Part shown: one piece after another, positions 22,191 to 52,811 of the stretch
Layout of the letters: every line of letters starts with the position of its first letter
Numbering within the stretch: position 1 is the first letter of the stretch
Notes under the pieces: generated by a model
Database searches by the model: none
What the model saw: the letters and a program-made list of their open reading frames with translations, nothing else
What the model was told of the DNA's origin: nothing
Made by a program: the position numbers and the translations under genes
DNA from: Bacteroidota bacterium
Lineage (GTDB): Bacteria > Bacteroidota > Bacteroidia > Bacteroidales > SKPS01
Assembly: GCA_022709695.1 (NCBI GenBank)
Contig: JAKLII010000008.1
Location: 1-64,000, forward strand
Direction: 5' to 3'
DNA length: 64,000 bases

Positions 22191-23474
22191 ATGATGAAAA
22201 ACCTGCTGAACCATAAACTGTTGCAAAAAGAAACAATCCCGTTTACAGGGTTGTTGATAGGGGTGGTTGCAGCAGCTGTGCGAGCCATTTCCATCAGATT
22301 TCCGGCCGGTTTTTCGGGGGATGAGCTGTTTTACTGGCGGGAGGTTGTTCGTCTTCAGGAAATAGGATGGTGGAATATGCTGACCACCGGTACCTCTTTT
22401 CTGTACATTGGGTTGTCAGGGCTCCTTACCCATCTTACCGGAAGCATCTTGTTGTCGAACCGGCTGCTTTCGCTGATCCCCGGATTGCTCGTGATCTGGT
22501 CCCTCTGGAAAATGGCGGGTTTATGGGATATCTCCCTTCCGGTGAAAAGGGTAATGCTGCTTACTGCCCTGGCCTTTGTATTCGACCCCTCGCGCAGTCC
22601 GTTCCTGTTCGGCACAAACGACGCCCTGATGTTTGCCTGTGTGGCTGAAGGGGTATACCGTTTGTTCTGCTGGCTGAAATACAATAAGCTGAGCAGTCTG
22701 GTGGCTTCAGCCGTGTTGTTCGGGATGGGGTTCTGGGTGAGGGAAATCACCCTGATGTACCTGATACCCCTGTATGGTGCTGCCTTGCTGTATCTGATTT
22801 TTCCCTCCTGGAAGCCAGTATCCCGTCGTATCGGGGCAATTGCGTTGTTTAGCGGTATCCTTTTGTGTACAGGCATCCTTGTACATCTGCCAGCGTTGTC
22901 AGTCAATGGCACATCTGGTTTTGAAGACAAAAACTATATGGGCAACTGGCGCGAAAGGGATTACCTCTCTCAAATCAGGAGGCAGCCATCCGGGTCTGTA
23001 TTTGCCTATGAACGTGTGGAATGGGCTGAAGTGCGTGCATACAAAAACTCAGGACTCAAACCTGAATTACCTGCAACCCGTCTGGAGATCCTCAGGCGCG
23101 ACCCAAAAATGGTAGCCGATGCCTTTGCATCCAACCTGCTGATCCGGTGTACATACCTGTTCACCCTCAGAAATGGCCTCCTGTTTTTCCTGTTCCTCGC
23201 ATCGTTCTGGTTATTCCCGTGGGTCAGAAGAAAAGCGATCTTTTCGCAATGGATCCTGCTGATTTTGCTGATTACAGGATATACCCTCGAGATTTCAGCC
23301 ATCACGCTGCACCGGATCGAAATCCGGTGGCTCACCCTCTCAATCCTGTTTGTGACACTTGCAGGTTCTTATATGCTTGATTTGCTGCGTATTGAACGAC
23401 CAAAGCTCTACAGAACCGCTCTCTGGCTGCAATATGCCGTCATCGGCTTGTCGCTGGCAATGATATTAATTTGA
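22191..23474 (+). CDS. Multi-pass membrane GT-C-type glycosyltransferase candidate
   Basis: About 427 residues from the ATG at 22191 (a TTG at 22161 would add ten). Around ten hydrophobic segments are visible. The first loop holds FSGDELFYWREV near 42-53, resembling the acidic DE motif of GT-C enzymes such as ArnT/GT39, which transfer sugars from polyprenyl phosphate donors. A long extracytoplasmic loop (about 240-315, SGFEDKNYMGNWRERDYLSQ) separates the helix groups. No family was recognised more specifically. It lies between rfbA and the LegB-like dehydratase and ends 2 bases before it. Confidence 0.65.
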   Translation: MMKNLLNHKLLQKETIPFTGLLIGVVAAAVRAISIRFPAGFSGDELFYWREVVRLQEIGWWNMLTTGTSFLYIGLSGLLTHLTGSILLSNRLLSLIPGLLVIWSLWKMAGLWDISLPVKRVMLLTALAFVFDPSRSPFLFGTNDALMFACVAEGVYRLFCWLKYNKLSSLVASAVLFGMGFWVREITLMYLIPLYGAALLYLIFPSWKPVSRRIGAIALFSGILLCTGILVHLPALSVNGTSGFEDKNYMGNWRERDYLSQIRRQPSGSVFAYERVEWAEVRAYKNSGLKPELPATRLEILRRDPKMVADAFASNLLIRCTYLFTLRNGLLFFLFLASFWLFPWVRRKAIFSQWILLILLITGYTLEISAITLHRIEIRWLTLSILFVTLAGSYMLDLLRIERPKLYRTALWLQYAVIGLSLAMILI

Positions 23475-23476
23475 TT

Positions 23477-24466
23477 ATGAAGACACAAGATAAGAAAAAC
23501 ATCCTGGTCACCGGTGCCGACGGATTCATTGGATCCCACCTGACTGAGCTTTTGCTTCAGGAGGGATACCGGGTGAGAGCCCTGTCGCTGTATAACTCCT
23601 TCAACTTCCACGGCTGGCTTGAGGGGATTTCCCATCCCGATCTGGAGGTGGTTACGGGTGATATCCGCGACCCTTATCTCTGCCGCAAACTCACGGAGGA
23701 TGCTGATCTGGTATTCAACCTTGCCGCCCTGATTGCAATACCATTCTCGTACGTGGCTCCGGACCTTTATGTGGAAACGAATGTAAAGGGTACCCTCAAC
23801 CTGTGCCAGGCCGCCCTTGACAACAAGGTACAGAGGTTTGTGCAGGTTTCTACCTCTGAAGTATACGGCACTGCCCGATACGTACCTATCGACGAGAAAC
23901 ATCCCAAACAGCCGCAATCCCCTTATTCCGCCACTAAAATCGGGGCCGATGCCATGGCACTCAGTTACTGCCATGCCTACGGATTGCCGGTGACCGTTGC
24001 CAGACCCTTCAATACATACGGCCCCAGGCAGTCGGCACGTGCCGTAATCCCCACCATCATCTCCCAGCTTCTGGCAGGCGCTGTTGAAATCCACCTGGGC
24101 GACACAACCCCCACCCGCGATTTCTGTTTCGTTACTGATACCTGCAGAGCGCTACTGGCCCTTGCAAATGCCCCTGCAGAAGGGATTGAGGTGAATATTG
24201 CCACCGGTAGCGAGATCTCCATAGGTGATCTGTTTATGCTGATTCGGGATCTTACGGGGAAAGAGGCCGTGATAGTAGCGGACAACGAACGTTTCAGGCC
24301 GAAAAATTCCGAAGTATTTCGCCTCTGCGGCGATACCACGCTGCTTCAGCAGCTTACCGGATTCAAACCCGCCACTCCGCTGCGTGAGGGACTGCGTGCC
24401 ACCATCAGTTGGTTCAGCCACTCCGAAAACCTGAAGCAATACAAAACGGGTATCTACAACATCTGA
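23477..24466 (+). CDS. legB: LegB-like NAD-dependent 4,6-dehydratase (SDR)
   Basis: 329 residues from the ATG at 23477. NILVTGADGFIGSHLTELLL near 8-27, then LSLYNSFNFHGWLEG near 38-52, FVQVSTSEVYGTARYVPIDE near 117-136, and the YSATK active site near 146-150 are the signature of the LegB clade, which removes water from UDP- or GDP-GlcNAc to give the 4-keto-6-deoxy sugar that begins legionaminic-acid synthesis. The downstream neuC/neuB/neuA homologues at 35-39 kb fit that pathway, although they are separated by about 11 kb. The next two genes encode a PLP enzyme and an acyltransferase, the same order of reactions as LegC and LegH. Confidence 0.83.
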   Translation: MKTQDKKNILVTGADGFIGSHLTELLLQEGYRVRALSLYNSFNFHGWLEGISHPDLEVVTGDIRDPYLCRKLTEDADLVFNLAALIAIPFSYVAPDLYVETNVKGTLNLCQAALDNKVQRFVQVSTSEVYGTARYVPIDEKHPKQPQSPYSATKIGADAMALSYCHAYGLPVTVARPFNTYGPRQSARAVIPTIISQLLAGAVEIHLGDTTPTRDFCFVTDTCRALLALANAPAEGIEVNIATGSEISIGDLFMLIRDLTGKEAVIVADNERFRPKNSEVFRLCGDTTLLQQLTGFKPATPLREGLRATISWFSHSENLKQYKTGIYNI

Positions 24467-24475
24467 ATCATTGAT

Positions 24476-25561
24476 ATGTCAGCCCGCTGGATTATTGGAG
24501 GAGAGTTAATTCCGAACCCTCAGGCGGATCCGGAGAAAAAATATCTTTCCCCACAGGCATGGGCTGAGCGCCACCACCCCGGATATTATGCGAACCTGAC
24601 AGGCGGAGGGTACTACTCGCTCAAAGTGCTGCTGGCAAACCTGAAGAATCGAATGCCGACGCCTGCAGTACTGCTCCCTTCCTACCTGTGTTCAGATATC
24701 ATCAGCACTTTCAGGGAGATGGAGGTTGCTTACACCTTCTATCCCGTGGATGAACACCTCCAGATCGATCTCGGAGCACTTGGTAAGCTGTTGGCAGATC
24801 CGGAAAATCAGGTGCTGTACATCATCCCCTGGTTTGGATTCCCTTTGCCGGATCATGCGACTGAGGCTATCCGCGCCTGGAAAGTACAGGGGCTCACTGT
24901 ATGGGAAGACCGGGCCCAATGCCTCTTCCCCGAATTTGCACCCTTGGGTGATGCCATCTTTTACAGCTTCAGGAAATTCCTCCCCCTCGACGGCAGCCTG
25001 TTGCTGACAAAAGAGGAGGTGGAGTGTCGTCCCGATCATTTCAACGATGTGTATCTGGCCTGGCGAAGGCAGGGACAGGCCTTCAGAAGCTGGTTTGTGC
25101 ATGACAACCTCCCCTTTGAGGCTGAATGCCTCGAATGTTTTGCCCGGGCCAACGATTATTACCATCAGCCCGGTGTGGCAGGTATGGATGTGAAAAGCCT
25201 TGCATGGTTTGAACAAACCGATATTGATACCGAAACCGCTGCCCGGCGAAGGGTTTACACCCTGTTGCATGAACGGCTGAAGGAGTATGCCCTGTTTCCT
25301 GATCCCGAAATCTCAGCTGCATCGCCCCATTGCTTTCCGGTTGTGATTGACCACCGCGATTGGGTTTTTGATACCCTGAAAGCGCAACAGATCTTCGCCC
25401 CGATCCTCTGGAGATTTGATGAAGGAGAGGTGCCCGTACATTTTACCGGGTCCCATGCCCTTTCGGGCCGTATCCTCAACCTGCCGGTAAGAACAGGTTT
25501 TCCGGATGATGCATGGGAATACATGGCCGGTGTTTTTCTTGAATCCCTCCGCCATGGATAG
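24476..25561 (+). CDS. Divergent DegT-like PLP-dependent aminotransferase
   Basis: 361 residues. It keeps the fold-type I layout of DegT/DnrJ enzymes but is divergent: GGGYYSLKVLLANL near 42 (PLP phosphate region), LPSYLCSDIISTFREMEV near 66-83, VWEDRAQCLFPE near 142 (Asp for the pyridine nitrogen) and SFRKFLPLDGSLLLT near 164-178 with the presumptive Schiff-base lysine. It is not close to classic LegC. It follows the LegB-like dehydratase by 9 bases and overlaps the GNAT/FemAB-like gene by 8 bases, so amination of the 4-keto sugar is the likeliest role, by inference. The first 20 residues are atypical and may mark a separate subfamily. Confidence 0.7.
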   Translation: MSARWIIGGELIPNPQADPEKKYLSPQAWAERHHPGYYANLTGGGYYSLKVLLANLKNRMPTPAVLLPSYLCSDIISTFREMEVAYTFYPVDEHLQIDLGALGKLLADPENQVLYIIPWFGFPLPDHATEAIRAWKVQGLTVWEDRAQCLFPEFAPLGDAIFYSFRKFLPLDGSLLLTKEEVECRPDHFNDVYLAWRRQGQAFRSWFVHDNLPFEAECLECFARANDYYHQPGVAGMDVKSLAWFEQTDIDTETAARRRVYTLLHERLKEYALFPDPEISAASPHCFPVVIDHRDWVFDTLKAQQIFAPILWRFDEGEVPVHFTGSHALSGRILNLPVRTGFPDDAWEYMAGVFLESLRHG

Positions 25562-26660
25562 TCACCTGATCACTATGCCTGAATATCCCGAAGGAAAGCT
25601 GCTCACCCTGGCGGATGCTGAGGAATGGAGGGCTGCTTTCAGAAGACTGCCTGTATTCCGGCAGGATGTCTACTTCACCCCGGAATATTACCGGCTTTTC
25701 GAAGCATGGCAGGGGGGGCGAGCCGCCTGCTTTGTGTTTACACATGCCGGCGATACAGCTCTCTATCCGTTTCTGATGAACCCTGTGCCGGGATCATTCG
25801 GGGATGAGTACAGAAATTATATAGATATTCAGGGAGCATACGGGTACAACGGGGTAGCTTCCGGAAATGATACAGAAGAGTTTTCGCAGCGGTTTTATGC
25901 GAAATTCCATGACTGGTGTCTGAGTAACGGGGTGATTGCCGAGTTTACCCGTTTTAATCCGGTGCTGGACAACATTGGTTTCAGCAGGCGGGTGATGGAG
26001 GTGGAGGAAGATCGCACCACTGTGCTCCTGCCGCTTCCTCCCGGTACCACTATGGAATCAGTCAGGACAGGTTACCGGAAAGAAACCCGGAAGAATGTGA
26101 AACATGCACTTGTTTCACCCATTACCTGGCGGAAGGGTTCTGAATCAGCAGATTATAAATCTTTTGGGTCACTCTACCGTTATGCCATGCAGCATCGGGG
26201 AGCTGCCCCCTTTTACCTGTTTGATGATTCCTTTTTTGAAAGACTCCGCAGTACTCCCAAGGATCTTGTGCACCTTCTGTTGTTTGAGGTGGACGGTGAA
26301 TTTGCCGGAGGTTTTTTGCTGTTTACCGGTGGATTATATGCCCACAACTTCCTCTCGGCGGTGAACGACACCGGCCGCCGGGCAGGGATAAGCGAGCTGA
26401 TGCAGGATGTGGCGGTTGCGGTGACACTTGAGCAGGGGTGTACCATGCTGCACCTTGGGGGCGGCAGCACCCGTGATCCGTACGACAGCCTGCTGAAATT
26501 CAAAAAAGGATTTTCAGGCCATACAGCCAGGTTTTATATTGGTAAAAAGATCCATAACCCTGTGGTTTATTGCGAAGTAATGGAAGCCTGGAAACAAAAA
26601 TATCCTGCCCTGGCCTCCCGAATAGGTCACAGGTTGCTGGCGTACCGGGAAAGGGAGTAA
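25554..26660 (+). CDS. FemAB/GNAT-like acyltransferase
   Basis: 368 residues from the ATG at 25554, which overlaps the previous stop by 8 bases; the frame is open a further 16 codons upstream. The C-terminal half has the acyl-transferase features GYRKETRKNVKHAL near 174-187, SLYRYAMQHRG near 206, LLFEVDGEFAGGFLLFTGGL near 242-261 and GISELMQDVAVAVTLEQGCTM followed by LHLGGGS...SLLKFKKGF near 300-325, the pattern of the FemAB-related GNAT group that transfers acyl or aminoacyl groups onto sugars or peptides. In this location it could acylate the amino sugar made by the preceding enzyme (a LegH-like step). The acyl donor is unknown. Confidence 0.7.
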   Translation: MDSHLITMPEYPEGKLLTLADAEEWRAAFRRLPVFRQDVYFTPEYYRLFEAWQGGRAACFVFTHAGDTALYPFLMNPVPGSFGDEYRNYIDIQGAYGYNGVASGNDTEEFSQRFYAKFHDWCLSNGVIAEFTRFNPVLDNIGFSRRVMEVEEDRTTVLLPLPPGTTMESVRTGYRKETRKNVKHALVSPITWRKGSESADYKSFGSLYRYAMQHRGAAPFYLFDDSFFERLRSTPKDLVHLLLFEVDGEFAGGFLLFTGGLYAHNFLSAVNDTGRRAGISELMQDVAVAVTLEQGCTMLHLGGGSTRDPYDSLLKFKKGFSGHTARFYIGKKIHNPVVYCEVMEAWKQKYPALASRIGHRLLAYRERE

Positions 26661-26710: not shown

Positions 26711-28090
26711 ATGCAATGGAATGGTCGCCTTATTTCGATGATTGTGGTGGTGGCGCTCACCTCCTTTATGGGTACATTTCTGATCTCTTCGGTCAATATT
26801 GCCCTTCCGGCCATTGAAAAGTCCTTTCTACTGGATGCGGTGTCACTTAGCCGCATCGTCACGGCCTTTCTGCTTTCCACTGCCATCTTCCTGCTTCCGG
26901 CGGGGCGCTGGGGCGACCTGATGGGTATCAGGAGGCTTTTCAGGATCGGGCTGTTTATTTTTGTGATTTCGTCGTTGGGCGGAGGATTAGCCCCATCCGG
27001 CAACTGGCTGATTTTGTGCAGATTTATTCAGGGCATTGGAGCAGCTTTCAGTAATACCACCGGTCCGGCCATTCTGGTATCAGCATTTCCTCCGCAGCAT
27101 CGTGGGCGCGTACTGGGGATATCGGTTTCGGGGGTATATACTGGTCTTGCAGCAGGTCCGTTTATCGGTGGGATGCTCACGGAGTATGCCGGCTGGAGGT
27201 CGATCTTTTTTACCGGAGCAGCCCTGGGGTTGTTCTGTATCGTGCTTGCATGGATTTATCTTGGAAAGGATGAAACAAGTACCTCAGCCAGAAGGCGTTT
27301 TGACTATCCCGGCACCGGATTGTACATGACTGGCTTTGTTTTGCTTGTTGCAGGGTCCTCTATGATCCCTTTCCTGGCGGGATGGCTTTTTCTGGCTTTT
27401 GGGACCTTTGCCCTCATTCTGTTCTGGTTTGTGGAAACACGAACGGAAATGCCGGTTCTGGACACCAGGCTGTTCAAAGGCAACCGGCTGTTTGCCTATT
27501 CCAATATTGCAGCCCTGATCAACTACAGTGCTACTTTCGCCATTGTGTTCTACCTGAGCCTGTTCCTGCAGAAGATCCAGGGTATGCCTCCCCGCACCGC
27601 CGGCACCATCCTGGTAGCCCAGCCGGTGATGATGGCCCTGATGTCGCCTATCACAGGCAGGTTGTCGGATCGGATACAACCCCGGTTTTTCACCAGCACC
27701 GGGATGTTCATGTGTGCCCTCGGACTGCTTGCCATGGCTTTCCTCACAGCTGCCACACCGGTGTGGGCCATCGTGCTGCTGCTGCTATGGGTGGGTACCG
27801 GCTTTGCACTGTTCTCTTCCCCCAACATGAACACCATCATGGGCTCTGTACAGAAACACCAGCTTGGACTGGCAAGCGGCACCGCAGCCACCATGCGTGT
27901 GGCAGGGCAGATCATCAGCATGACCATCGCAACCCTCTTTATCGCCCTCTACATCGGCAACCAAACTGTAAAAACCGTCCCCGATGCCATCTTTCTCAGA
28001 ACCATGCATTACGGTTTTATCACCTTCGCCCTCATCTGCGGTCTTGGGGTCTGGTTCTCGATGAAACGCGGGAAAGTGACATTTGGCTGA
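26711..28090 (+). CDS. MFS drug/proton antiporter (DHA2/EmrB-QacA-like)
   Basis: 459 residues with about 14 hydrophobic segments. Motifs include SSVNIALPAIEKSF near 25-38 (the motif of helix 1 in DHA2 members), AGRWGDLMGIRRLFRIGL near 65-82 (loop 2-3 motif A), RFIQGIGAAFSNTTGPAIL near 102-120 and GPFIGGMLTEYAGWRSIFF near 150-168 (motif C). It exports unknown compounds using proton exchange. It is preceded by a 50-base gap with AGAAAGT repeats and is not obviously part of the sugar cluster. The 54-bp repeat array begins about 100 bases after its stop. Confidence 0.9.
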   Translation: MQWNGRLISMIVVVALTSFMGTFLISSVNIALPAIEKSFLLDAVSLSRIVTAFLLSTAIFLLPAGRWGDLMGIRRLFRIGLFIFVISSLGGGLAPSGNWLILCRFIQGIGAAFSNTTGPAILVSAFPPQHRGRVLGISVSGVYTGLAAGPFIGGMLTEYAGWRSIFFTGAALGLFCIVLAWIYLGKDETSTSARRRFDYPGTGLYMTGFVLLVAGSSMIPFLAGWLFLAFGTFALILFWFVETRTEMPVLDTRLFKGNRLFAYSNIAALINYSATFAIVFYLSLFLQKIQGMPPRTAGTILVAQPVMMALMSPITGRLSDRIQPRFFTSTGMFMCALGLLAMAFLTAATPVWAIVLLLLWVGTGFALFSSPNMNTIMGSVQKHQLGLASGTAATMRVAGQIISMTIATLFIALYIGNQTVKTVPDAIFLRTMHYGFITFALICGLGVWFSMKRGKVTFG

Positions 28091-28106
28091 TGATGTTGAG
28101 CGCTAC

Positions 28107-28182
28107 GCTGTTGAGGAGGTTTAGGAAGTTGAGGAGGCGGAGCGAAGCGGAGTCCCGATAGCGAAGCGTATCGGGATTGAGG
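28107..28182. repeat. Short palindromes after the MFS gene
   Basis: TCCCGATA (28153-28160) pairs with TATCGGGA across GCGAAGCG, and GGAGCGAAGCGGAG repeats nearby. A related sequence with TCCCGG and TCGCTTCGCT is at 63360-63385. No T-run follows, so a terminator role is uncertain. Confidence 0.6.
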
Positions 28183-28194
28183 GAATTGAGTTTG

Positions 28195-28606
28195 AGAACC
28201 CCGAAGGGGTGCCAGAATTAAAGGGTGAGGGCGCACGCAGAAAAGAAAGAACCCCGAAGGGTTGCCAGGATTATAGGGTGAGGGATGCATGCAGAAAAGA
28301 AAGAACCCCGAAAGGATGCCAGGATTATAGGGTGAGGGATGCACGCAGAAAAGAAAGAACCCCGAAGGGGTGTCAGAATTATAGGGTGAGGGATGCACGC
28401 AGAAAAGAAAGAACCCCGAAGGGTTGCCAGGATTATAGGGTGAGGGATGCACGCTGAAAAGAAAGAACCCCGAAGGGGTGCCAGGATTATAGGGTGAGGG
28501 ATGCACCATGAAAAGAAAGAACCCCGAAGGGGTGTCAGGATTATAGGGTGACGGATGCACCATGAAAAGAAAGAACCCCGAAGGGGTGATAGGATTATCG
28601 GAGAAA
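28195..28606 (+). repeat. Eight-copy 54-bp hairpin array beside the RAYT gene
   Basis: AACCCCGAA begins at 28197, 28250, 28304, 28358, 28412, 28466, 28520 and 28574; the spacing is 54 (53 once). Each unit holds the hairpin ACCCC-GAA-GGGGT (two copies degenerate), then GYCAGGATTATAGGGTGAGG, then GATGCACGCAGAAAAGAA. There are no unique spacers. Because 54 is a multiple of three the array stays open on both strands, giving artefactual 18-residue repeat proteins. The last unit differs after the hairpin (GATAGGATTAT) and forms the left end of the RAYT element. Confidence 0.93.
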
Positions 28607-29201
28607 GGGGCTACACCATTTCGGGTTCATCATCATACCATTCAAAAAGATACGGCTCCTGAAATTCTATTTCAAACCTTTTAAGAAGCTCAAGATATTC
28701 CTCCCTGAATGACCGTTTTTTATGATGTTGCTCTTGATTCTGTATATACCGATACACGTCATCGAGTTGCGAATGACCATAGGAAAAAGCTCCGTAACCT
28801 TCCTGCCACTGGAAATGCCACGGCAACCATCGTTTGGAATTGATGAAATTGGAAGAGTTGTTTTTAATATCCCTTGCCAGGTCTGAGATTCGCATACTTG
28901 GTTTCAATCCCACGAATGCATGCACATGGTTGGAAACACCGTTGACAATGATGGCCTTTTGATTTTTCTCTCGTATGATACCGGACATGTATTTGAATAC
29001 ATTCTGCCTCCATTCAGGTTTAAGAAGGTTTTCCCGGCCTTTTACGGCAAATACATATTGTATATAGATTTGGGTATAGGTTCCGGCCATGGGTTTGATT
29101 TTTAACAAAGAAATAAAATTTTACAAGATGAATTTAATAATCATGTCCAAAATCATCATTCATTATCATCTCATCTATAATCATATCACCCCTTCGGGGT
29201 T
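28574..29201 (-). mobile_element. RAYT element bounded by 25-bp inverted repeats
   Basis: The left end at 28574-28598 and the reverse complement of the right end at 29177-29201 agree at 24 of 25 positions. Each end consists of AACCCCGAAGGGGT (a hairpin) followed by GATAGGATTAT on the left and GATATGATTAT on the right. The REP-associated tyrosine transposase gene lies between them, 12 bases from the left end and 86 from the right. This is the layout of a RAYT gene framed by inverted REP-like hairpins. Confidence 0.75.
28611..29090 (-). CDS. REP-associated tyrosine transposase (RAYT, IS200-like Y1 family)
   Basis: 159 residues from the ATG at 29090 (MAGTYTQIYIQYVFAVKGRE). A further in-frame ATG lies 6 codons upstream, but TYTQIY-x(4)-VFAVKGR is the usual start of these proteins. 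The HUH motif appears as VSNHVHAFVGLKP near 53-65 (histidines flanking a hydrophobic residue), and the tyrosine nucleophile is expected in the helix AFSYGHSQLDDVYRYIQNQEQHH near 101-123. WHFQWQEGYGAFSYGHS near 91-107 is also typical. Such enzymes cut and join single-stranded REP hairpins. The neighbouring array and inverted ends supply candidate substrates. The C-terminus (EPYLFEWYDDEPEMV) is the standard tail. Confidence 0.9.
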   Translation of the reverse strand: MAGTYTQIYIQYVFAVKGRENLLKPEWRQNVFKYMSGIIREKNQKAIIVNGVSNHVHAFVGLKPSMRISDLARDIKNNSSNFINSKRWLPWHFQWQEGYGAFSYGHSQLDDVYRYIQNQEQHHKKRSFREEYLELLKRFEIEFQEPYLFEWYDDEPEMV

Positions 29202-34102: not shown

Positions 34103-34495
34103 ATGGATGATAAACTCGACCATTTAGTTCAGTATTGGATTGATACCTCAGAGAAGGATCGTTTGACAATGCAAAATCTCCTCAAATCCGGAGATTATAG
34201 CTGGGCTTTGTTCCTTGGGCATCTGGTTCTTGAAAAACTACTAAAGGCTCATTATGTAAAGAACCAGGGAAGGCATGCATTTTTTACTCATGACTTACTC
34301 AGACTCGCTACCAATGCAGGTCTCATTCTTGATAAAGACTTTGAAGAGTGGCTTGATGACATCTCCTCATTCAACATCAATGCCCGTTATGATAATTACA
34401 AACAGGATTTTTACCGACTCTGCACCAAGGAGTTTGCAGAGGAATGGACTGAACGAATCGAAACATTGCGATCATGGTTAATCCGGGAATTATAG
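34103..34495 (+). CDS. HEPN domain protein (HEPN/MNT toxin-antitoxin)
   Basis: 130 residues, all-helical. ALFLGHLVLEKLLKAHYVKN near 33-52 is the central HEPN helix, and GRHAFFTHDLLRLATNAG near 54-71 carries the conserved R-x5-H type stretch and the (T)HDLLRLA signature of MNT-linked HEPN proteins. DISSFNINARYDNYKQDFYR near 89-108 is the usual later motif. HEPN partners in these pairs are RNases or targets that are silenced by nucleotidylation from the MNT protein. It overlaps the MNT gene by 22 bases. Confidence 0.9.
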   Translation: MDDKLDHLVQYWIDTSEKDRLTMQNLLKSGDYSWALFLGHLVLEKLLKAHYVKNQGRHAFFTHDLLRLATNAGLILDKDFEEWLDDISSFNINARYDNYKQDFYRLCTKEFAEEWTERIETLRSWLIREL

Positions 34496-34779
34496 ACACC
34501 GTCAGGCAGTATGTTCTGATGATCCCTAAAGATCTTGGGGTGAAAAAAGTATACTTGTTTGGTTCATTTGCCAAAGGAACCGAAACCGATAACAGTGACA
34601 TTGATGTTGCACTGGTTCTTGAAAACATGAGTGACTTTTTTGCTACCCAGAAGCAATTGATGAAGCTCAGACGAAAGATTGACCTAAGGATTGAACCTCA
34701 TCCCATCAATGAGAAGGATTTTAATTCGTTCAATCCATTTGCTTATGAGATTGAACAGACAGGAATCCTCGTTTCGTGA
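34474..34779 (+). CDS. MNT-type minimal nucleotidyltransferase (antitoxin)
   Basis: 101 residues. VYLFGSFAKGTETDNSDIDV at about 26-45 is the intact nucleotidyltransferase motif (GSx10DxD), and KIDLRIEPHPINEKDF near 68-83 supplies the third acidic position (D at 70). In characterised MNT/HEPN pairs this enzyme adds AMP to the HEPN tyrosine and blocks its RNase activity. Its start lies inside the HEPN gene, consistent with coupled translation. The unit sits at the boundary between the repeat-rich segment and the nonulosonic-acid operon. Confidence 0.92.
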   Translation: MVNPGIIDTVRQYVLMIPKDLGVKKVYLFGSFAKGTETDNSDIDVALVLENMSDFFATQKQLMKLRRKIDLRIEPHPINEKDFNSFNPFAYEIEQTGILVS

Positions 34780-35063: not shown

Positions 35064-36272
35064 ATGAGAAGGATTGCCGTATGTTCTTTTGCCCGCTCAG
35101 AATACGGGCTGCTGAAAAGGGTAATTTCCCTCATGTCGCAACAGGCAGAGACCTTTCTGATTGCGGGTGGGGGGCACCTCGACACCCATTCCGGCTATTC
35201 AATGCAGGAGGTGCTGGAGGATGCCATACTGCCGGAATCCCATCTGCTGAAAGCTCCGTTTGCTCCCTCGTCCGGTGATGCCACCGGAGCCCCTAAAATG
35301 GTTTCATCAGGGTTGACGGTTCTTACCAACTTGCTGAATCACCACCATTTTGATGCGGTGATGGTGATGGGAGACCGGTATGAGCTGTTTACGGTGACCA
35401 TCCCGGCCCTGTTGCTGGGTATCCCGGTGATCCATATCAGCGGTGGCGAAGTTACCGAAGGGGCTATTGACGACAGCATCCGGCACGCCACCACCAAGCT
35501 GGCTCACCTCCATCTGGTTTCAAATGCCGTATACGCAGAAAACGTGAGCCGCATGGGCGAGGAGGATTGGCGAATCGTAATTACAGGGGAACCCGGACTC
35601 GATAATATTCACCACGGGGTATTTGCTACAGACGACGAATTGCAGTCGCAATACGGGCTGGATCCGGATAAACCGCTGATCCTGGTAACCTATCACCCAT
35701 CCACCCTTGAACCCGGCCTCTCTCCGGCAGACCAATGCCGGCCACTTGTCGAAGCCTTGAAGGAATCCGATGATTACCAGGTAGTAATCACAGCACCGGG
35801 TGCCGATCCCGGAAGCCATGAAATTGTGCGGATTATGTCGGCCCTGGCTGGTTCCTGCCCCCATGTGCGGTATATTCCTCATCTGGGCAGCCGTAATTAT
35901 CTGGCGTTGTTGCGGAAAGCCGCCGTGGTGGCGGGAAATTCCTCCAGCGGACTGGTGGAAGCTCCGTCGCTTAAAATCCCGGCAGTGAATATTGGCAACC
36001 GCCAGAAAAACAGAATGGCTGCAGACAGCGTGATCCACTGCGGATATGATACCCGAGAAATCCTGCATGCCATCCGGGAAGCCACCTCTGCAGCCCACAG
36101 GGAGTTATGCACCATCACCGAAAACCCTTACGACCCTTTCTGCGACGGAAACAACAGCGAAAGAGCAGTGAAAGCTGCACTGGCATTTATGAACCTCCCG
36201 ATCCGGCAGCAACTGGTAAAAAAATTCGACACCGCCCTATCCAAACACCTATGGAATCAACTGTTGGCCTGA
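35064..36272 (+). CDS. neuC: UDP-N-acetylglucosamine 2-epimerase, hydrolysing (NeuC/LegG)
   Basis: 402 residues, normal for NeuC-type enzymes. MRRIAVCSFARSEYGLLKRV opens with the family's R-S-E-Y-G-L motif, VMVMGDRYELF near 98-108 is the conserved GDR segment, IHISGGEVTEGAIDDSIRHA near 123-142 carries the active-site residues, and GNSSSGLVEAPSLKIPAVNIG near 292-312 is the UDP-binding loop. The enzyme inverts C2 and releases UDP, giving ManNAc or its 2,4-diacetamido-6-deoxy analogue for the synthase encoded next. Which substrate is used is not settled by the sequence, but LegB-like and PtmE-like genes in the region favour the legionaminic version. Confidence 0.93.
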   Translation: MRRIAVCSFARSEYGLLKRVISLMSQQAETFLIAGGGHLDTHSGYSMQEVLEDAILPESHLLKAPFAPSSGDATGAPKMVSSGLTVLTNLLNHHHFDAVMVMGDRYELFTVTIPALLLGIPVIHISGGEVTEGAIDDSIRHATTKLAHLHLVSNAVYAENVSRMGEEDWRIVITGEPGLDNIHHGVFATDDELQSQYGLDPDKPLILVTYHPSTLEPGLSPADQCRPLVEALKESDDYQVVITAPGADPGSHEIVRIMSALAGSCPHVRYIPHLGSRNYLALLRKAAVVAGNSSSGLVEAPSLKIPAVNIGNRQKNRMAADSVIHCGYDTREILHAIREATSAAHRELCTITENPYDPFCDGNNSERAVKAALAFMNLPIRQQLVKKFDTALSKHLWNQLLA

Positions 36273-37273
36273 ATCGTGAACCAGTGCTCGTGATTGCTGA
36301 AGCTGGTGTAAACCACAACGGCAATCTGGATATGGCCTTCAGGCTTTGCGATGCTGCCCGGGAAGCCGGGGCTGATATTGTGAAATTTCAGACCTGGAAG
36401 ACCGATGCCCTGATGCTTAGGGAGGCTGAACTTGCTGAGTACCAGAAGCAGAATGCCGGATTCTACCCATCTCAATATGAGATGTCGAAACAACTGGAAA
36501 TCAGCTATGAAGACTTCAGAAAAATCCGGGATTACTGCCAGCATACCGGCATTCGGTTCCTTTCGACCCCTGACGAAGAGGAGAGCCTGAATTTTCTCGC
36601 TGATGACCTGCAAATGGAGCTTATCAAGATCGGATCGGGGGAAATTACCAACCTGCTGTACCTTTCGCAGGTAGGTCGAAAAGGGAAAGATGTGATCCTG
36701 TCAACGGGCATGGCCGATCTGACGGAGGTGGGTACGGCATTCCGTATCCTGAAGGATTCAGGCGCCCGCTCGGTGATACTGCTCCACTGTACCAGCAACT
36801 ACCCCACACCTTTTTGGGAAGTGAACCTGCGGGCTATGATGACCCTGAAAGATCATTTCGGTGTGCCGGTAGGTTATTCGGACCATACAATGGGCATCGA
36901 AGCTGCTGTGGCTGCAGTGGCCCTGGGAGCAGTGGTTGTGGAGAAGCACCTTACCCTTGACCGGACACTGCCGGGGCCTGATCACAAAGCCAGCCTGGAA
37001 CCCGGAGAGTTCGGAAATATGGTGCGGGCGATCAGAAATATCGAAAAAGCACTGGGCGATGGTGTAAAACAACCGCAGGATTCAGAACGGAGGATCCGCC
37101 CTGTGGTGCAGAAAAGCCTTGTGGCAAAGACCACCATCACGAAGGGCGAACCTTTTTCGGAGGAGAACGTAACAGCCAAGCGCGCCGGCCGCGGCATCCC
37201 CGCCAGCCGGTGGCCGGAAATTACAGGCCGTACTGCAGGTCGCAGTTATCAGCCGGATGATCTGCTGGAATGA
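36251..37273 (+). CDS. neuB: N-acetylneuraminate/legionaminate synthase (NeuB/LegI)
   Basis: 340 residues from the ATG at 36251, which overlaps neuC by 22 bases; an upstream in-frame ATG at 36107 adds only out-of-family sequence. PVLVIAEAGVNHNGNLDMAF near 11-30 and GADIVKFQTW near 40 begin the TIM barrel. LIKIGSGEITNLLYL near 119, GYSDHTMGIEAAVAAVALGA near 204-223 and EKHLTLDRTLPGPDH near 227-241 carry the PEP and metal residues. A C-terminal SAF (antifreeze-like) domain lies near 275-338. It condenses PEP with the hexosamine to make a nine-carbon nonulosonic acid. The next gene overlaps the stop by ATGA. Confidence 0.95.
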   Translation: MESTVGLNREPVLVIAEAGVNHNGNLDMAFRLCDAAREAGADIVKFQTWKTDALMLREAELAEYQKQNAGFYPSQYEMSKQLEISYEDFRKIRDYCQHTGIRFLSTPDEEESLNFLADDLQMELIKIGSGEITNLLYLSQVGRKGKDVILSTGMADLTEVGTAFRILKDSGARSVILLHCTSNYPTPFWEVNLRAMMTLKDHFGVPVGYSDHTMGIEAAVAAVALGAVVVEKHLTLDRTLPGPDHKASLEPGEFGNMVRAIRNIEKALGDGVKQPQDSERRIRPVVQKSLVAKTTITKGEPFSEENVTAKRAGRGIPASRWPEITGRTAGRSYQPDDLLE

Positions 37274-38430
37274 AAAAAACAAAGAGGTTTTTACTCCTTG
37301 GAGCCAGCGAAGAGATGCTGCCCCTCATCCGCCTTGCGCAGGCTGAAGGGTATGCAGTGATTGCCACCGACCGCAACCCGGAGGCTCCCGGGCTGAAAAC
37401 AGCAGATCACCCTTTCTGCATGGATGCTTCTGAACTGCCGGCAACCTGGAAATTGGCCAGGGAGTGGAAACCGTGTGCCATTACCACCCGCACCGAGCTC
37501 CTGTTGCCGGTAGTGGCGTCAGTTTGCCATGAACTGCAACTGCCCGGTCCGGATAAAACCTGTGCTGAACTCTCGGTGGATAAATACCGTTTCAGGGAGA
37601 CCATGCAGCGGGCAGGAATCCGCACGCCCCGCTTTGCCTCTCCTGAAAATGAGGCAGCACTTTTGGAAACGCTTGCAAGTATCGGCCTTCCTGCCATCAT
37701 CAAACCGGTCGACTTCAGCGGAAGCACCGGAGTATCCCTGATCAGAACATCGGAAGATGCTGTCCCGGCATTTCTCCGCGCCAGAAATGCTTCTCCGGCA
37801 GGCTGGGTAATTCTGGAGGAATTTGTCAACGGAAAAGAGATCAGCGTGGAAACCTGGAGCCAGCATGGAAAAATCCATTTTGTGGCATTCACAGACAAAC
37901 AGGTTTCCGGAAACGGCCATTTCGTGGAGCTGCGGCATACCATCCCTTCAGCGCTCAGCCTGACAGAGCAACGGCTGGTAATGGGGGAGGTGGAGAAAAT
38001 GGCTGCTGCCATGAACCTTAACGATACCATTGCACATACCGAAGTGATTTTATCAGAAAATGGCCCTGTGATCGTTGAAACCGGAGCCCGCCCGGGAGGC
38101 GACCATATTGCGTTCAGGTTGGTCCCGCTGGCCACTGGTATCGACATGTATCGTATTATGTTCCAACTGGCTGCAGGTATTGAAGTACCTTCCCATACCC
38201 CCACCGCAAAGGCAGCGGCCATCCAGTACAGTACATCAGAAAACTATCAATATATCGATAAAATACATCAATCGGTTATTTCAGATGATAATTTTGTCGA
38301 ATACATTGAACATTTTTCACACAAACCGGAAAAGCTGACCTGTTCAGCCGACCGCAGCGGGGCCTGGCTTTTTGCAGCTCCCGGGGCAGCCAGTCTTGCA
38401 AAAAGTTTGCGTATTTTTGAAGGCCTTTAG
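37270..38430 (+). CDS. ATP-grasp ligase inside the nonulosonic-acid operon
   Basis: 386 residues. An N-terminal preATP-grasp domain (FLLLGASEEMLPLIRLAQAE near 7-26) is followed by the ATP-grasp fold: LSVDKYRFRETMQRAGIRTP near 98-117, IKPVDFSGSTGVSLIRT near 140-156 (P-loop-like glycine region), VILEEFVNGKEISVE near 178-192 and VIVETGARPGGDHI near 264-277 with metal-binding residues. These enzymes join a carboxylate to an amine or thiol using ATP. Its position between the synthase and the CMP transferase, coupled by ATGA overlap, suggests that the nonulosonate (whose C1 is a carboxylate) or an attached amino acid is the substrate. That is inference only. Confidence 0.85.
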   Translation: MKKTKRFLLLGASEEMLPLIRLAQAEGYAVIATDRNPEAPGLKTADHPFCMDASELPATWKLAREWKPCAITTRTELLLPVVASVCHELQLPGPDKTCAELSVDKYRFRETMQRAGIRTPRFASPENEAALLETLASIGLPAIIKPVDFSGSTGVSLIRTSEDAVPAFLRARNASPAGWVILEEFVNGKEISVETWSQHGKIHFVAFTDKQVSGNGHFVELRHTIPSALSLTEQRLVMGEVEKMAAAMNLNDTIAHTEVILSENGPVIVETGARPGGDHIAFRLVPLATGIDMYRIMFQLAAGIEVPSHTPTAKAAAIQYSTSENYQYIDKIHQSVISDDNFVEYIEHFSHKPEKLTCSADRSGAWLFAAPGAASLAKSLRIFEGL

Positions 38431-38432
38431 GT

Positions 38433-39128
38433 ATGAAACATCTGGCCATCATCACAGCACGTAGCGGATCCCGCGGGCTGCCCGGTAAAAACATCAGGCT
38501 GCTCAACGGTCATCCCATGCTCGCATGGAGTATCGCAGCTGCCCTTAAAAGCGGGTTATACGACAGGGTAATTGTATCGACCGATGATGAAGCGTATGCT
38601 GACATCGCACAACAATACAGGGCTGAGGTGCCATGGCTGCGGAATGCATCCCTTTCGGGCGATGACGCAACAAGTACGGATGTGATTGTTGATTTGCTGG
38701 AGAACCTTACGAATCATGGTGAGGTGTACGATTATTTCACCCTGTTGCAACCCACTTCTCCGCTTCGGACGGCAGAGGACCTTAAAGGGGCATGGCGGAT
38801 GATGCAAGAGAAAAAGGCTTCTGCCGTGGTCGGGGTATCTGCCTGTGATCATCCACCCCAGTGGGCCGGGCTGCTGCCCGAAGATCTGTCGATGGAGGCG
38901 TTTGTAAACCCTTTGTTCAACCGGCCACGTCAGCAGTTACAACCTTATTACCGCATCAATGGGGCGGTGTATATGTCTTCGGTTGAAGCCTTTATAAGGG
39001 AAAAGGGCTTTTTGCACAGCGGAACCTATGCCCTGGTGATGCCTAAGGAACGATCTGTAGATATTGATGATGAGAGCGATTTCCTGTTGGCCGGCCTGTT
39101 GATGGAGAAATTGAACTACAAGATATGA
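38433..39128 (+). CDS. neuA: CMP-nonulosonate cytidylyltransferase (NeuA/LegF family)
   Basis: 231 residues. LAIITARSGSRGLPGKNIRL at about 4-23 is the CTP-binding loop (R-SGSRGLPGKN), followed by SIAAALKSGLYDRVIVSTDD near 33-52, LLQPTSPLRTAEDL near 106-119 and the terminal VMPKERSVDIDDESDFLLA near 204-222 with the metal-binding acidic pair. It activates the nonulosonic acid as CMP-sugar, the donor for glycosyltransferases. It overlaps the CBS/nucleotidyltransferase gene by 4 bases. Confidence 0.94.
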   Translation: MKHLAIITARSGSRGLPGKNIRLLNGHPMLAWSIAAALKSGLYDRVIVSTDDEAYADIAQQYRAEVPWLRNASLSGDDATSTDVIVDLLENLTNHGEVYDYFTLLQPTSPLRTAEDLKGAWRMMQEKKASAVVGVSACDHPPQWAGLLPEDLSMEAFVNPLFNRPRQQLQPYYRINGAVYMSSVEAFIREKGFLHSGTYALVMPKERSVDIDDESDFLLAGLLMEKLNYKI

Positions 39129-40177
39129 AGGATAGAGTAATCATTCAGCACACCCTTTCGGTGCAGCAGGCTTTGGAGATTCTGGACGACAGCCCTGTTA
39201 AAACGCTGTTCCTCACAGATGGGGATGGGCGTTTGTGCGGGAGCCTTACCGACGGTGATGTGCGCCGGTGGATTCTCCGTAACGGAGACATCAGCGGTAC
39301 CGTGTCGGATGCCTGTAACCCTTCCCCCTACACACTCAGGTTACCCTTCGACCGCCATGAAGTGTTGCATCAGATGAAGGAGAAACATCTGAATGCGGCT
39401 CCGGTGGTGGATGTCGCAGGAAAGATCGACTCCATAGTACTGATTTCCGAGTTGTCGGACCAAGGGTCTTCCGACGCATCCGCGCTCCATGGCGTGCCGG
39501 TGGTGATTATGGCCGGTGGCAAGGGAACCCGCCTTGACCCCTTTACGCGCATTCTCCCCAAGCCGCTTATTCCTATCGGGAACCAGCCGGTTATTGAGGT
39601 GATCATGCATGAACTTGCACGCTATGGTGCTGATCGGTTTATTATCTCCCTCAACCACCAGGCACGCCTCATTAAGGCCTATTTTGAAGATCAGCAATAT
39701 CCCTACGACATCTCCTTTCTGGAAGAAGATCAGCCATTGGGTACCGCCGGAGCCCTGAAGATGCTTGAAGGAAAGATTGAGGGTGATCTGCTGGTGAGTA
39801 ACTGCGATGTGATCATCAAATCGGATGTGGGGGAGATGCTGCGGTTCCACCGTTCCGGCGGATTTTCCATCACGGTGGTGGCCGCACTCTATAACCTGTC
39901 GGTACCCTATGGGGTTTGCGATGTGGATGAAAAGGGTGTGCTGCTCCGCATAACTGAGAAACCCGAGTTCAGTATGCTTATCAATTCGGGGATGTATGTG
40001 CTTGGTTCGGATTGCCTTTCGATGATTCCTGAAAGCCGGATGTTTCACATCACCCATCTGATTGAAGCTGTTCAGGCAGCAGGCAAGCCCGTGGGGGTAT
40101 TCCCGATCCCGGGATCAGCCTACCATGATATCGGACAATGGGATGCCTATCACTCAGCCCTTCCAAAACTTACCTGA
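39125..40177 (+). CDS. CBS-domain sugar nucleotidyltransferase (PtmE/LegK-like)
   Basis: 350 residues. Two CBS domains occupy about 1-118 (TLFLTDGDGRLCGSLTDGDVRRWILRNG near 29-56, AAPVVDVAGKIDSIVLISEL near 92-111). The nucleotidyltransferase follows: VVIMAGGKGTRLDPFTRILP near 126-145, IGNQPVIEVI near 151, SFLEEDQPLGTAGALKMLEG near 197-216. In legionaminic-acid clusters of Campylobacter the same architecture (PtmE) makes GDP-glucosamine from glucosamine 1-phosphate, the GDP-linked starting sugar. The CBS pair may sense a nucleotide or the final product. Together with NeuC, NeuB and NeuA it completes much of a legionaminic route. Confidence 0.88.
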   Translation: MKDRVIIQHTLSVQQALEILDDSPVKTLFLTDGDGRLCGSLTDGDVRRWILRNGDISGTVSDACNPSPYTLRLPFDRHEVLHQMKEKHLNAAPVVDVAGKIDSIVLISELSDQGSSDASALHGVPVVIMAGGKGTRLDPFTRILPKPLIPIGNQPVIEVIMHELARYGADRFIISLNHQARLIKAYFEDQQYPYDISFLEEDQPLGTAGALKMLEGKIEGDLLVSNCDVIIKSDVGEMLRFHRSGGFSITVVAALYNLSVPYGVCDVDEKGVLLRITEKPEFSMLINSGMYVLGSDCLSMIPESRMFHITHLIEAVQAAGKPVGVFPIPGSAYHDIGQWDAYHSALPKLT

Positions 40178-48241: not shown

Positions 48242-49243
48242 ATGGCTGTCCTGGGAATATTAACAGAGCCTTCGGGCTGGGAAAAGCATTACATTGCCGC
48301 CTGCGAAGAGCTGAACGTGCCCTACAGGGTAATTGACATTGTCAGCAATAAATGGTGGGAAAACATTAAGAATGAGCCGGTTGACGGCTATCTGGTACGG
48401 GCTGCCGGCGACACGGAGGTGCGAAAGCAGATGTACAATGAACGGTTGTATTTCATCGAAAAATACCTGCCCGACACTCCGATGTACCCTTCCTATTTCG
48501 GAAGCCTGCTGTATGAAAACAAACGGATGCAATCGTACTGGATGAAAATCCATGATATTCCCCATCCCGAAACATGGATTTTTTACCGCCGGGATGAAGC
48601 AAAGGCATTTATCAGAGATCATTACCGCTGGCCCATTGTCTCAAAGCCCAATCTCGGGGGTGCAGGTTCGGGAGTGCGGATTGTCAACACCGCTGCAAAA
48701 GCCCGCAGGCTTGCAAGAAAGGTTTTTACCCGCTTCAAATGGTACAATCCCGGCCTTCTGCGCTGGAAAAAATGGTGGTTTCTGCGGATTCCCGTGATGG
48801 ATGACCGGCAGCACAACTACCTGTTGTTTCAGGAATACATTCCGGCCCAATGGGAATGGAGAATTCTGAAAGCCGGGGATTCGTATTTCGGACAACAGAA
48901 ATTACCGCGCAAGGGTCTTCACTCAGGCAGCCGTCGCTCAGGCTGGGTTGACCCGCCGCGGGAGCTGCTGGAGATCACAAGGAAAATCAGCGAGTTGTCC
49001 GGAATCCGGTCACTCAATGTGGATATCCTCGAACATACCGATGGCAGTTATTATGTGAACGAAATTCAAACGTGGTGGGGCGTAAGAACACCCTACCAGA
49101 TGAAGATCAATGACAAACCTGCGCGCTACCTGTATACCGGAAACGGTGAATATGAGCTGCAATTCGGGGATTTCCACCGAAACAGAGGATGCAACCTGAG
49201 GGTATCCGATTTCCTGGCGCAGCTCAACCAACCCCTTACCTGA
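48242..49243 (+). CDS. ATP-grasp family protein (RimK/YheC-like)
   Basis: 333 residues. VLGILTEPSGWEKHYIAACE near 3-22 begins a preATP domain, IVSKPNLGGAGSGVRIVNTA near 131-150 the ATP-binding loop, LLFQEYIPAQWEWRILKAGD near 195-214 and LNVDILEHTDGSYYVNEIQT followed by WWGVRTPYQM near 259-289 the metal-binding and closing segments. Its substrate is unknown. In surface-polysaccharide loci ATP-grasp ligases can attach amino acids to uronic acids; that is a reasonable inference here because uronic-acid sugars are made upstream. It is the second of three ATP-grasp genes. Confidence 0.8.
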   Translation: MAVLGILTEPSGWEKHYIAACEELNVPYRVIDIVSNKWWENIKNEPVDGYLVRAAGDTEVRKQMYNERLYFIEKYLPDTPMYPSYFGSLLYENKRMQSYWMKIHDIPHPETWIFYRRDEAKAFIRDHYRWPIVSKPNLGGAGSGVRIVNTAAKARRLARKVFTRFKWYNPGLLRWKKWWFLRIPVMDDRQHNYLLFQEYIPAQWEWRILKAGDSYFGQQKLPRKGLHSGSRRSGWVDPPRELLEITRKISELSGIRSLNVDILEHTDGSYYVNEIQTWWGVRTPYQMKINDKPARYLYTGNGEYELQFGDFHRNRGCNLRVSDFLAQLNQPLT

Positions 49244-51831: not shown

Positions 51832-52811
51832 ATCCACAAAAGCTGAAAGTATTGTTTGTTTCCGGCGGAAATCACCCTGGTTTCAGCATTGCCCCATTCA
51901 TCAAGAGCCAGGCTGAGGCATTGATGGAAGCGGGAGTTTCAGTGGATTTTTTCAGGATCACCCGTAAAGGGCTCAGGGGCTACCTGTCGCATATCAGACC
52001 TCTGCGCAAAGTTATCAGGGAAGGACAATACGACCTGGTCCATGCCCATTATACCTTTTGCGGGTGGGTAGCCCGACTTGCCAACAGCCGTATACCCCTT
52101 GTAGTTTCCTATATGGGTTCTGATACCTATGGCAGCGTCAACTCAAGCGGACGAAGAAAACTGAAAAGTATCCCGGTGGTTCTGCAGGGGATGCTGCTCA
52201 ATTTTTTCGTGGATGCCATTATCGTTAAATCGAAGAACCTCAGAAAGATGATACTGCGAAAAAGTATTGCTTCTGTAATTCCAAATGGTGTAGATTTTAA
52301 AGCATTTATGCCGATGGAGAAAGAGATTGCACTGCAAAAGCTGGGGTTATCGGACAATACCCGTTATGTGCTGTTTATGGGCAATCCTGCTGATCCGCGA
52401 AAGAATTTTTCCCTGGCATTCAAGGCATGTCAGCTTGCAGAAAAACAGGTGAAATTTCGTTTGCTTTCTCCTTATCCTGTAAAGCCGGAGGATGTCCCCC
52501 TGTATCTGAATGCAGCCGACTTGCTGCTGGTTACTTCCTGGCTGGAGGGATCCCCGAATATTGTGAAAGAAGCAATGGCCTGCAATTGTCCCATCATTGC
52601 CACCCCTTCGGGTGACATTGCAGAAGTGCTTGGCCAGACCAAACAGTGTTACCTGCTTCCTTTCGATGCCGAGATGCTGGCAAAAGGAATATCTGAGGTG
52701 CTGTCGGCAGCCGGGCGATCAAACGGACGTGAACTCATGCAGCATCTCGACAATACCGTAGTGGCCAGGCAGATCATAGAACTATACAAACGATTGAAAA
52801 TAAATGAGTAA
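51828..52811 (+). CDS. Glycosyltransferase family 4
   Basis: 327 residues. VLFVSGGNHPGFSIAPFIKS near 7-26 (acceptor domain), LVHAHYTFCGWVARLANSRI near 68-87, VVSYMGSDTYGSV near 90, VIPNGVDFKAFMP near 146-158, and the C-terminal TSWLEGSPNIVKEAMACNCP near 237-256 with the E-x7-E motif. The overlap with the genes on both sides indicates coordinated expression. Confidence 0.92.
   Translation: MNPQKLKVLFVSGGNHPGFSIAPFIKSQAEALMEAGVSVDFFRITRKGLRGYLSHIRPLRKVIREGQYDLVHAHYTFCGWVARLANSRIPLVVSYMGSDTYGSVNSSGRRKLKSIPVVLQGMLLNFFVDAIIVKSKNLRKMILRKSIASVIPNGVDFKAFMPMEKEIALQKLGLSDNTRYVLFMGNPADPRKNFSLAFKACQLAEKQVKFRLLSPYPVKPEDVPLYLNAADLLLVTSWLEGSPNIVKEAMACNCPIIATPSGDIAEVLGQTKQCYLLPFDAEMLAKGISEVLSAAGRSNGRELMQHLDNTVVARQIIELYKRLKINE

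Follow-up and report, generated by a model that had tools for sequence, protein, structure and literature searches.

Organization of the nonulosonate operon

The window analysed here is a stretch of 64,000 nucleotides (contig C20:1-64000) from a 3.39-Mb genome that is 98% complete. It carries a tight operon with the gene order neuC-neuB-ATP-grasp-neuA-PtmE, in which the ATP-grasp gene is located between neuB and neuA (Table 1). The genes overlap or lie almost in contact: neuC and neuB share 19 bases, the TGA of neuB and the ATG of the ATP-grasp gene overlap in the aATGA at 37269-37273, the ATP-grasp stop codon TAG (38428-38430) is followed 2 bases further on by the ATG of neuA, and neuA has an ATGA in common with the CBS-domain/nucleotidyltransferase gene. 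Scans for promoters and terminators returned site numbers no higher than in shuffles.

The NeuC_NnaA and NeuB_NnaB models of NCBIfam were both passed above their cut-offs, and the ATP-grasp protein scored 64 bits against PF13535, for which the cut-off is 27. The latter protein is claimed by no curated NCBIfam model, the top match being one of 119.5 bits to the N-terminal part of PRK02186, whose cut-off is 625. The textbook Neu, Leg and Pse pathways contain no ATP-grasp, and we agree in this respect with the initial annotation of the window, which had described the gene as foreign to the standard sialic, legionaminic and pseudaminic pathways.

Table 1. Positions of the genes discussed in the window and of ATP-grasp genes in surveyed loci (L numbers)
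Feature	Position	Strand	Basis
LegB-like NAD-dependent 4,6-dehydratase, 11 kb upstream	23471..24466	+	TIGR04180 'LegB' 440.8 bits, just below cut-off 475
PLP-enzyme-like protein	24476..25561	+	directly after LegB; homologous to an ORF of L123; relatives adjoin a FemAB-like gene in L121 and L123
FemAB/CelD-like acyltransferase (PF13480)	25506..26660	+	PF13480 2.3e-09; FemAB 8.5e-04
neuC/legG hydrolysing 2-epimerase	35064..36272	+	TIGR03568 334 bits, above cut-off; nearest solved structure GDP/UDP-N,N'-diacetylbacillosamine 2-epimerase
neuB/legI nonulosonate synthase	36254..37273	+	PF03102 2.3e-94; TIGR03569 450 bits, above cut-off 399.65
ATP-grasp_4 (PF13535) carboxylate-amine ligase (predicted), 386 aa	37270..38430	+	ATP-grasp_4 1.6e-17 (Pfam); AlphaFold2 model; ortholog in G380
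neuA/legF-type CMP-nonulosonate cytidylyltransferase	38433..39128	+	PF02348; CMP-NeuNAc synthetase structures
CBS-domain + nucleotidyltransferase protein, PtmE-like	39125..40177	+	CBS + NTP_transferase; seen beside neuB/neuC in 50 Leg-type loci
PRK12767/PF15632 ATP-grasp at LegH position, with a HAD-type phosphatase in L100 (5681-6637 and 6621-6935), L084 and L101	L100:5681-6935, L084:4938-6193, L101:5674-6927, L097:5677-6633, L113:5959-6894

Pathway type

The canonical Bacteroidales Leg operon has the order LegB-LegC-LegH-LegI-LegG-PtmE-LegF, which is also the usual order of the Leg-type loci surveyed below. Relatives of LegG, LegI, LegF and PtmE are all present in the window operon, and a LegB-like gene, by far the best TIGR04180 match of the genome though below the cut-off, is found elsewhere in the window. 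Unlike the canonical operon, the window has no LegH above the cut-off, carries an ATP-grasp between LegI and LegF, and places LegB and a FemAB-like gene 11 kb away. LegC is uncertain: the top aminotransferase candidate, whose neighbour on contig C15 is a sugar-transferase-like gene, reaches 402.8 bits against a cut-off of 420, where a LegC from a Leg operon reaches, for scale, 566 bits. In the whole 98%-complete genome no LegH/NeuD (TIGR03570) exceeds its cut-off of 160.8, the top score being 65 bits.

NeuC scores 216 bits against the bacillosamine 2-epimerase structures 5xvs/5zlr and 108 bits against human GNE, while the neuA product gives 177 bits with the PseF model, below the cut-off of 205.7. 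The CBS/nucleotidyltransferase protein is presumably of the PtmE type, the GlcN-1-P guanylyltransferase of the GDP-legionaminic route; in Campylobacter, PtmE makes the GDP-linked legionaminic acid precursor. An operon for Neu5Ac needs neither a 4,6-dehydratase nor PtmE, and its NeuC uses UDP-GlcNAc. Given the LegB-like and PtmE-like genes and the LegG-like NeuC, a plain Neu5Ac operon was set aside as the simple reading. As judged from the gene content, the same three features and the lack of a LegH above the cut-off point to a pathway that is probably legionaminic-type with an altered N-acylation step. Of the sialic or legionaminic context given in the initial annotation, the legionaminic part is thereby favoured over the sialic part.

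Predicted fold and active site of the putative ATP-grasp ligase

We examined the ATP-grasp protein through an AlphaFold2 model with a mean pLDDT of 93.7. The model shows the ATP-grasp fold over its full length, the top VIA-align match being the L-amino acid ligase 3vot (Z 39.0, rmsd 3.0, 374 residues), followed by 4dim (35.7) and BacD/YwfE (34.9). Residues K105, K145, E183 and R274 are invariant in 26 homologs, E258 and E270 are kept in 25 of the 26, and G276 and G277 are nearly invariant. In a profile alignment, E258, E270, R274 and H223 correspond to E311, E324, R328 and H276 of BacD, which are Mg2+ and substrate residues there, and D278 corresponds to W332, which is mutated in 3wo1.

The closest folds, BL00235 (3vot) and BacD/YwfE (3vmm, 3wnz), thus have the ATP/Mg2+ residues and the substrate-site Arg in common with the window ligase, and the substrate-site His of BacD is also present. 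They differ in sharing only ~20% identity with it, in the Asp that replaces W332 of BacD, and in their known substrates, which are free amino acids. Taken together, the fold matches, the kept lysines, the Mg2+ acidic residues and the substrate Arg give good support to the prediction of an active carboxylate-amine ligase.

Conservation of the neuB-ATP-grasp-neuA arrangement

One other genome in the collection is of the same family, the Lentimicrobiaceae MAG G380 (SKPS01000120.1), which also belongs to the same genus. It has the matching order neuC-neuB-ATP-grasp-(neuA), with an ATGA between neuB and the ATP-grasp gene and a neuA-like reading frame that starts over the ATP-grasp stop and is cut by the contig end. 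Protein identities between the two genomes are 57% for neuC, 57% for neuB and 48% for the ATP-grasp. Because both the order and the ATGA overlap recur in this genome, the coupling of neuB to the ATP-grasp gene, which the initial annotation had pointed out, is not a chance arrangement; the nonulosonate role that it had read from this coupling and from the place ahead of neuA is one with which we concur.

A scan of the genome collection for orthologs found the genus-mate alone, no further close sequence appeared in 296 phylum, 198 order and 395 class genomes, and no relative was found in viral contigs and phage records. The next-best relatives in a protein search show 29-35% identity and belong to other clusters, most of them for polysaccharides. 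As a gene between neuB and neuA, this subfamily is lineage-restricted, since the sampled phylum, order and class genomes contain no other close sequence, and its orthologs are known from just two genomes.

Other NeuB clusters also contain or adjoin PF13535 ligases like that of the window (L008, L010, L079, L080/L114 and L138). In the tree, the window and G380 proteins form a long branch of their own, which no starred link joins to these other ATP-grasps. A label test, in which the NeuB-linked ATP-grasps were compared only against the AG2 outgroup, gave a one-change result that says little. A single common origin of the NeuB-linked ATP-grasps was rejected, as the tree intermixes NeuB-linked with other rows and sets the window and G380 proteins apart. 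The recurrence at neuB loci that had been put forward as a check is seen only in part: this subfamily occupies the place between neuB and neuA in two genomes of one genus, and other ATP-grasp lineages are also found in NeuB loci (~8 of the 100 sampled NeuB regions); the earlier statement of a neuB association was too general.

Candidate alternatives to LegH in NeuB loci

On bacterial surfaces, nonulosonic acids serve as decorations and as mimics of the sialic acid of the host, and their N-acyl groups vary widely; several of the enzymes adding unusual N-acyl groups are unidentified. We surveyed 100 regions around PF03102 matches (60 of them from the order and 40 from the phylum), in a selection that took no account of ATP-grasps; of these regions, 50 qualify as Leg-type loci, defined by neuB, neuC and PtmE. 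An ATP-grasp is present in 0 of 37 LegH-bearing and 4 of 13 LegH-less Leg-type loci (Fisher p 0.003), an exclusion that rests on another ATP-grasp type than that of the window, the proteins of L084, L097, L100 and L101 (as well as that of L113) being PF15632/PRK12767-like and not of the PF13535 type. An ATP-grasp or a FemAB-like gene is found in 7 of 13 LegH-less against 1 of 37 LegH-bearing loci (p 0.0001), and in both comparisons the counts overstate the number of independent events, as some loci are related (L097, L100, L101).

Different genes are found in place of LegH. A HAD-type phosphatase of ~105 aa adjoins the ATP-grasp in L084, L100 and L101, and in L097 the matching gap is held by an opposite-strand ORF in the gene calls. 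As a speculation, the pair of ATP-grasp and HAD phosphatase might provide an acyl-phosphate route, for example ligation of phosphoglycerate followed by dephosphorylation to give an N-glyceroyl group. Formyltransferase-like proteins of 297-331 aa, judged from sequence alone, lie in or near the LegH slot in L169, L171, L172, L177 and L184, where they appear to stand in for LegH, which suggests that N-formyl legionaminic acids may be made. The formyltransferase of L121 was verified by Pfam. Homologs of the window's FemAB-like gene are located near neuB, at or near the LegH slot, in four other Leg operons, with a PLP-like gene in L121, L123 and L181 and without one in L188. The PLP-enzyme-like protein of the window itself gave no match in Pfam, NCBIfam or the PDB.

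This wider pattern of LegH alternatives is a more interesting result than the ATP-grasp of the window itself. Candidates for the missing N-acylation enzymes, as the survey indicates, are ATP-grasp ligases, whether on their own or paired with a HAD phosphatase. In the case of Tannerella forsythia, the gene for the N-glyceroyl group has been termed elusive (PMC6120980), and the pattern makes this gap testable, with the loci named above.

Proposed function of the ligase

In the mechanism that we propose, a PF13535 enzyme of the L-amino-acid-ligase kind would have been recruited into a legionaminic-type nonulosonate operon, where it would activate an amino acid or a comparable small acid by phosphorylating its carboxylate and join the activated acid, as an amide, to the free amine of the nonulosonate or to the amine of the 4-amino sugar that becomes the C7 amine. 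Ligation would precede CMP activation by the neuA product, and the resulting N-aminoacyl (or related N-acyl) legionaminic-type acid would carry this group in place of the usual 7-N-acetyl from LegH. To the core of this proposal, the addition of an aminoacyl-type group to the amine of a legionaminic-type nonulosonate or its precursor before the CMP step, we give an even chance. Counting against it, both the LegB and the LegC candidates fall below the curated cut-offs and the latter lies on another contig; moreover, the FemAB-like acyltransferase may already perform the LegH step, and the ligase has orthologs in no more than the two genomes.

We infer a nonulosonate amine as the acceptor and an amino acid as the donor because relatives of the ligase are enriched beside DegT aminotransferases, which make sugar amines, and because two genetic precedents exist; the timing ahead of CMP activation is inferred too. 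Of 24 ligase relatives, 13 have a DegT aminotransferase no more than two genes away, where random genes taken from these loci give 7.2 (p 0.006), and the E. hirae and P. distasonis plasmid capsule loci hold an aminotransferase, a sugar transferase and an ATP-grasp together. In the literature on ATP-grasps associated with nonulosonates, the relevant proteins are described by genetics, and enzymology was not found. The involvement of PF13535 ATP-grasps in glycan modification is already known; what is new is a legionaminic-type operon with such a ligase placed between its LegI and LegF genes.

The first precedent is Shewanella oneidensis sfmABCDE, in which, as in the window, a PF13535 ATP-grasp (sfmE) shares an operon with a NeuB-type synthase (sfmA), and where deletion of sfmE leads to an intermediate mass shift of flagellin (PMC3765264), as expected for the loss of a substituent. 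Unlike the window, the sfm operon has a short NeuB-type gene of 290 aa, a TPP enzyme, an SDR and a methyltransferase, and lacks neuC, neuA and PtmE. Among the surveyed loci, L010:6990-11500 (G193, same phylum) holds ORFs resembling this set (TPP-enzyme-like, SDR-like, ATP-grasp and short NeuB), and its ATP-grasp is not near that of the window in the tree.

The second precedent is Clostridioides difficile CDR20291_0244-0247, where a FemAB-like gene, a PF13535 ATP-grasp, a cyclodeaminase and FdtB are adjacent; the type B flagellin cap consists of taurinyl-Ala-Gly attached to N-3 of Fuc3N, and a mutant of the PF13535 gene CDR20291_0245 lacks the amino-acid-capped Fuc3N (PMC5207246, PMC5207245). 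The window shares with this system a PF13535 ATP-grasp and a FemAB-like acyltransferase in the company of an amino-sugar aminotransferase, and differs from it in that the C. difficile sugar is Fuc3N and no nonulosonate. The same gene set lends itself to another explanation, in which the product of the ATP-grasp would be a small peptide or an aminoacyl donor, to be passed on to the sugar amine by the FemAB-like protein; both kinds of gene are present in the window and genome, and dipeptide ligases are the top structural match. We consider this unlikely, as 11 kb separates the two genes, Leg operons with FemAB-like genes exist in genomes without the window-type ATP-grasp (G374, G078 and G141), and the sole FemAB-like item of G380 is a distant fragment outside the cluster. 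The presence of FemAB-like relatives in genomes lacking the ATP-grasp likewise leaves the notion of an obligate partnership between the two genes unsupported.

A somewhat less probable alternative is that the ligase serves another amino sugar of the polysaccharide cluster and that its position between neuB and neuA is incidental. Relatives of the ligase reside mostly in NeuB-less polysaccharide clusters, often adjoining DegT aminotransferases, and the window contains such a pathway, for example that of the deoxy amino sugar implied by a hexose 2,3-dehydratase at 43956 and a DegT at 53952, but the ATGA coupling to neuB and the place before neuA have been kept in G380 although the ATP-grasp proteins have diverged to the identity given above. 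Least of all do we expect the ligase to activate the nonulosonate at its C1 carboxylate and link this to an amine, one of the two options that the initial annotation had named: ATP-grasps of this fold activate carboxylates and the nonulosonate has one, but the relatives of the ligase accompany aminotransferases producing sugar amines, and a free carboxylate is commonly regarded as a requirement of CMP-nonulosonate synthetases and transferases. The carboxylate-amine ligation that the initial annotation had envisaged agrees with the fold and with the preserved active site, with the amine a much likelier point of attachment on the sugar than C1.

Returning to aminoacylation of the amine, we advance more tentatively, and with somewhat less than an even chance, that the operon makes an undescribed nonulosonate, an N-aminoacyl legionaminic acid, through the ATP-grasp acting between the LegI and LegF steps, as one case of a swappable LegH slot in Bacteroidota. 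If true, the choice among LegH, an ATP-grasp with or without a HAD phosphatase, a formyltransferase, or the FemAB-like/PLP-like alternatives would be a general rule in Bacteroidota.

Other features of the window

Two further ORFs of the same polysaccharide cluster recall ATP-grasps: that at 52804-53955 gives a weak match, and that at 48242-49243 is ATP-grasp-like by eye without a Pfam match. At 28009-29108, a tandem repeat with a short unit, the minus-strand translation of which contains repeats like VHPSPYNPGTPSGFFLF, directly adjoins an ORF resembling a REP-associated (IS200-type) transposase. Just upstream of the neuC operon, at 34103-34779, a HEPN-domain protein is followed by a nucleotidyltransferase-like ORF, probably forming a HEPN/MNT toxin-antitoxin pair.
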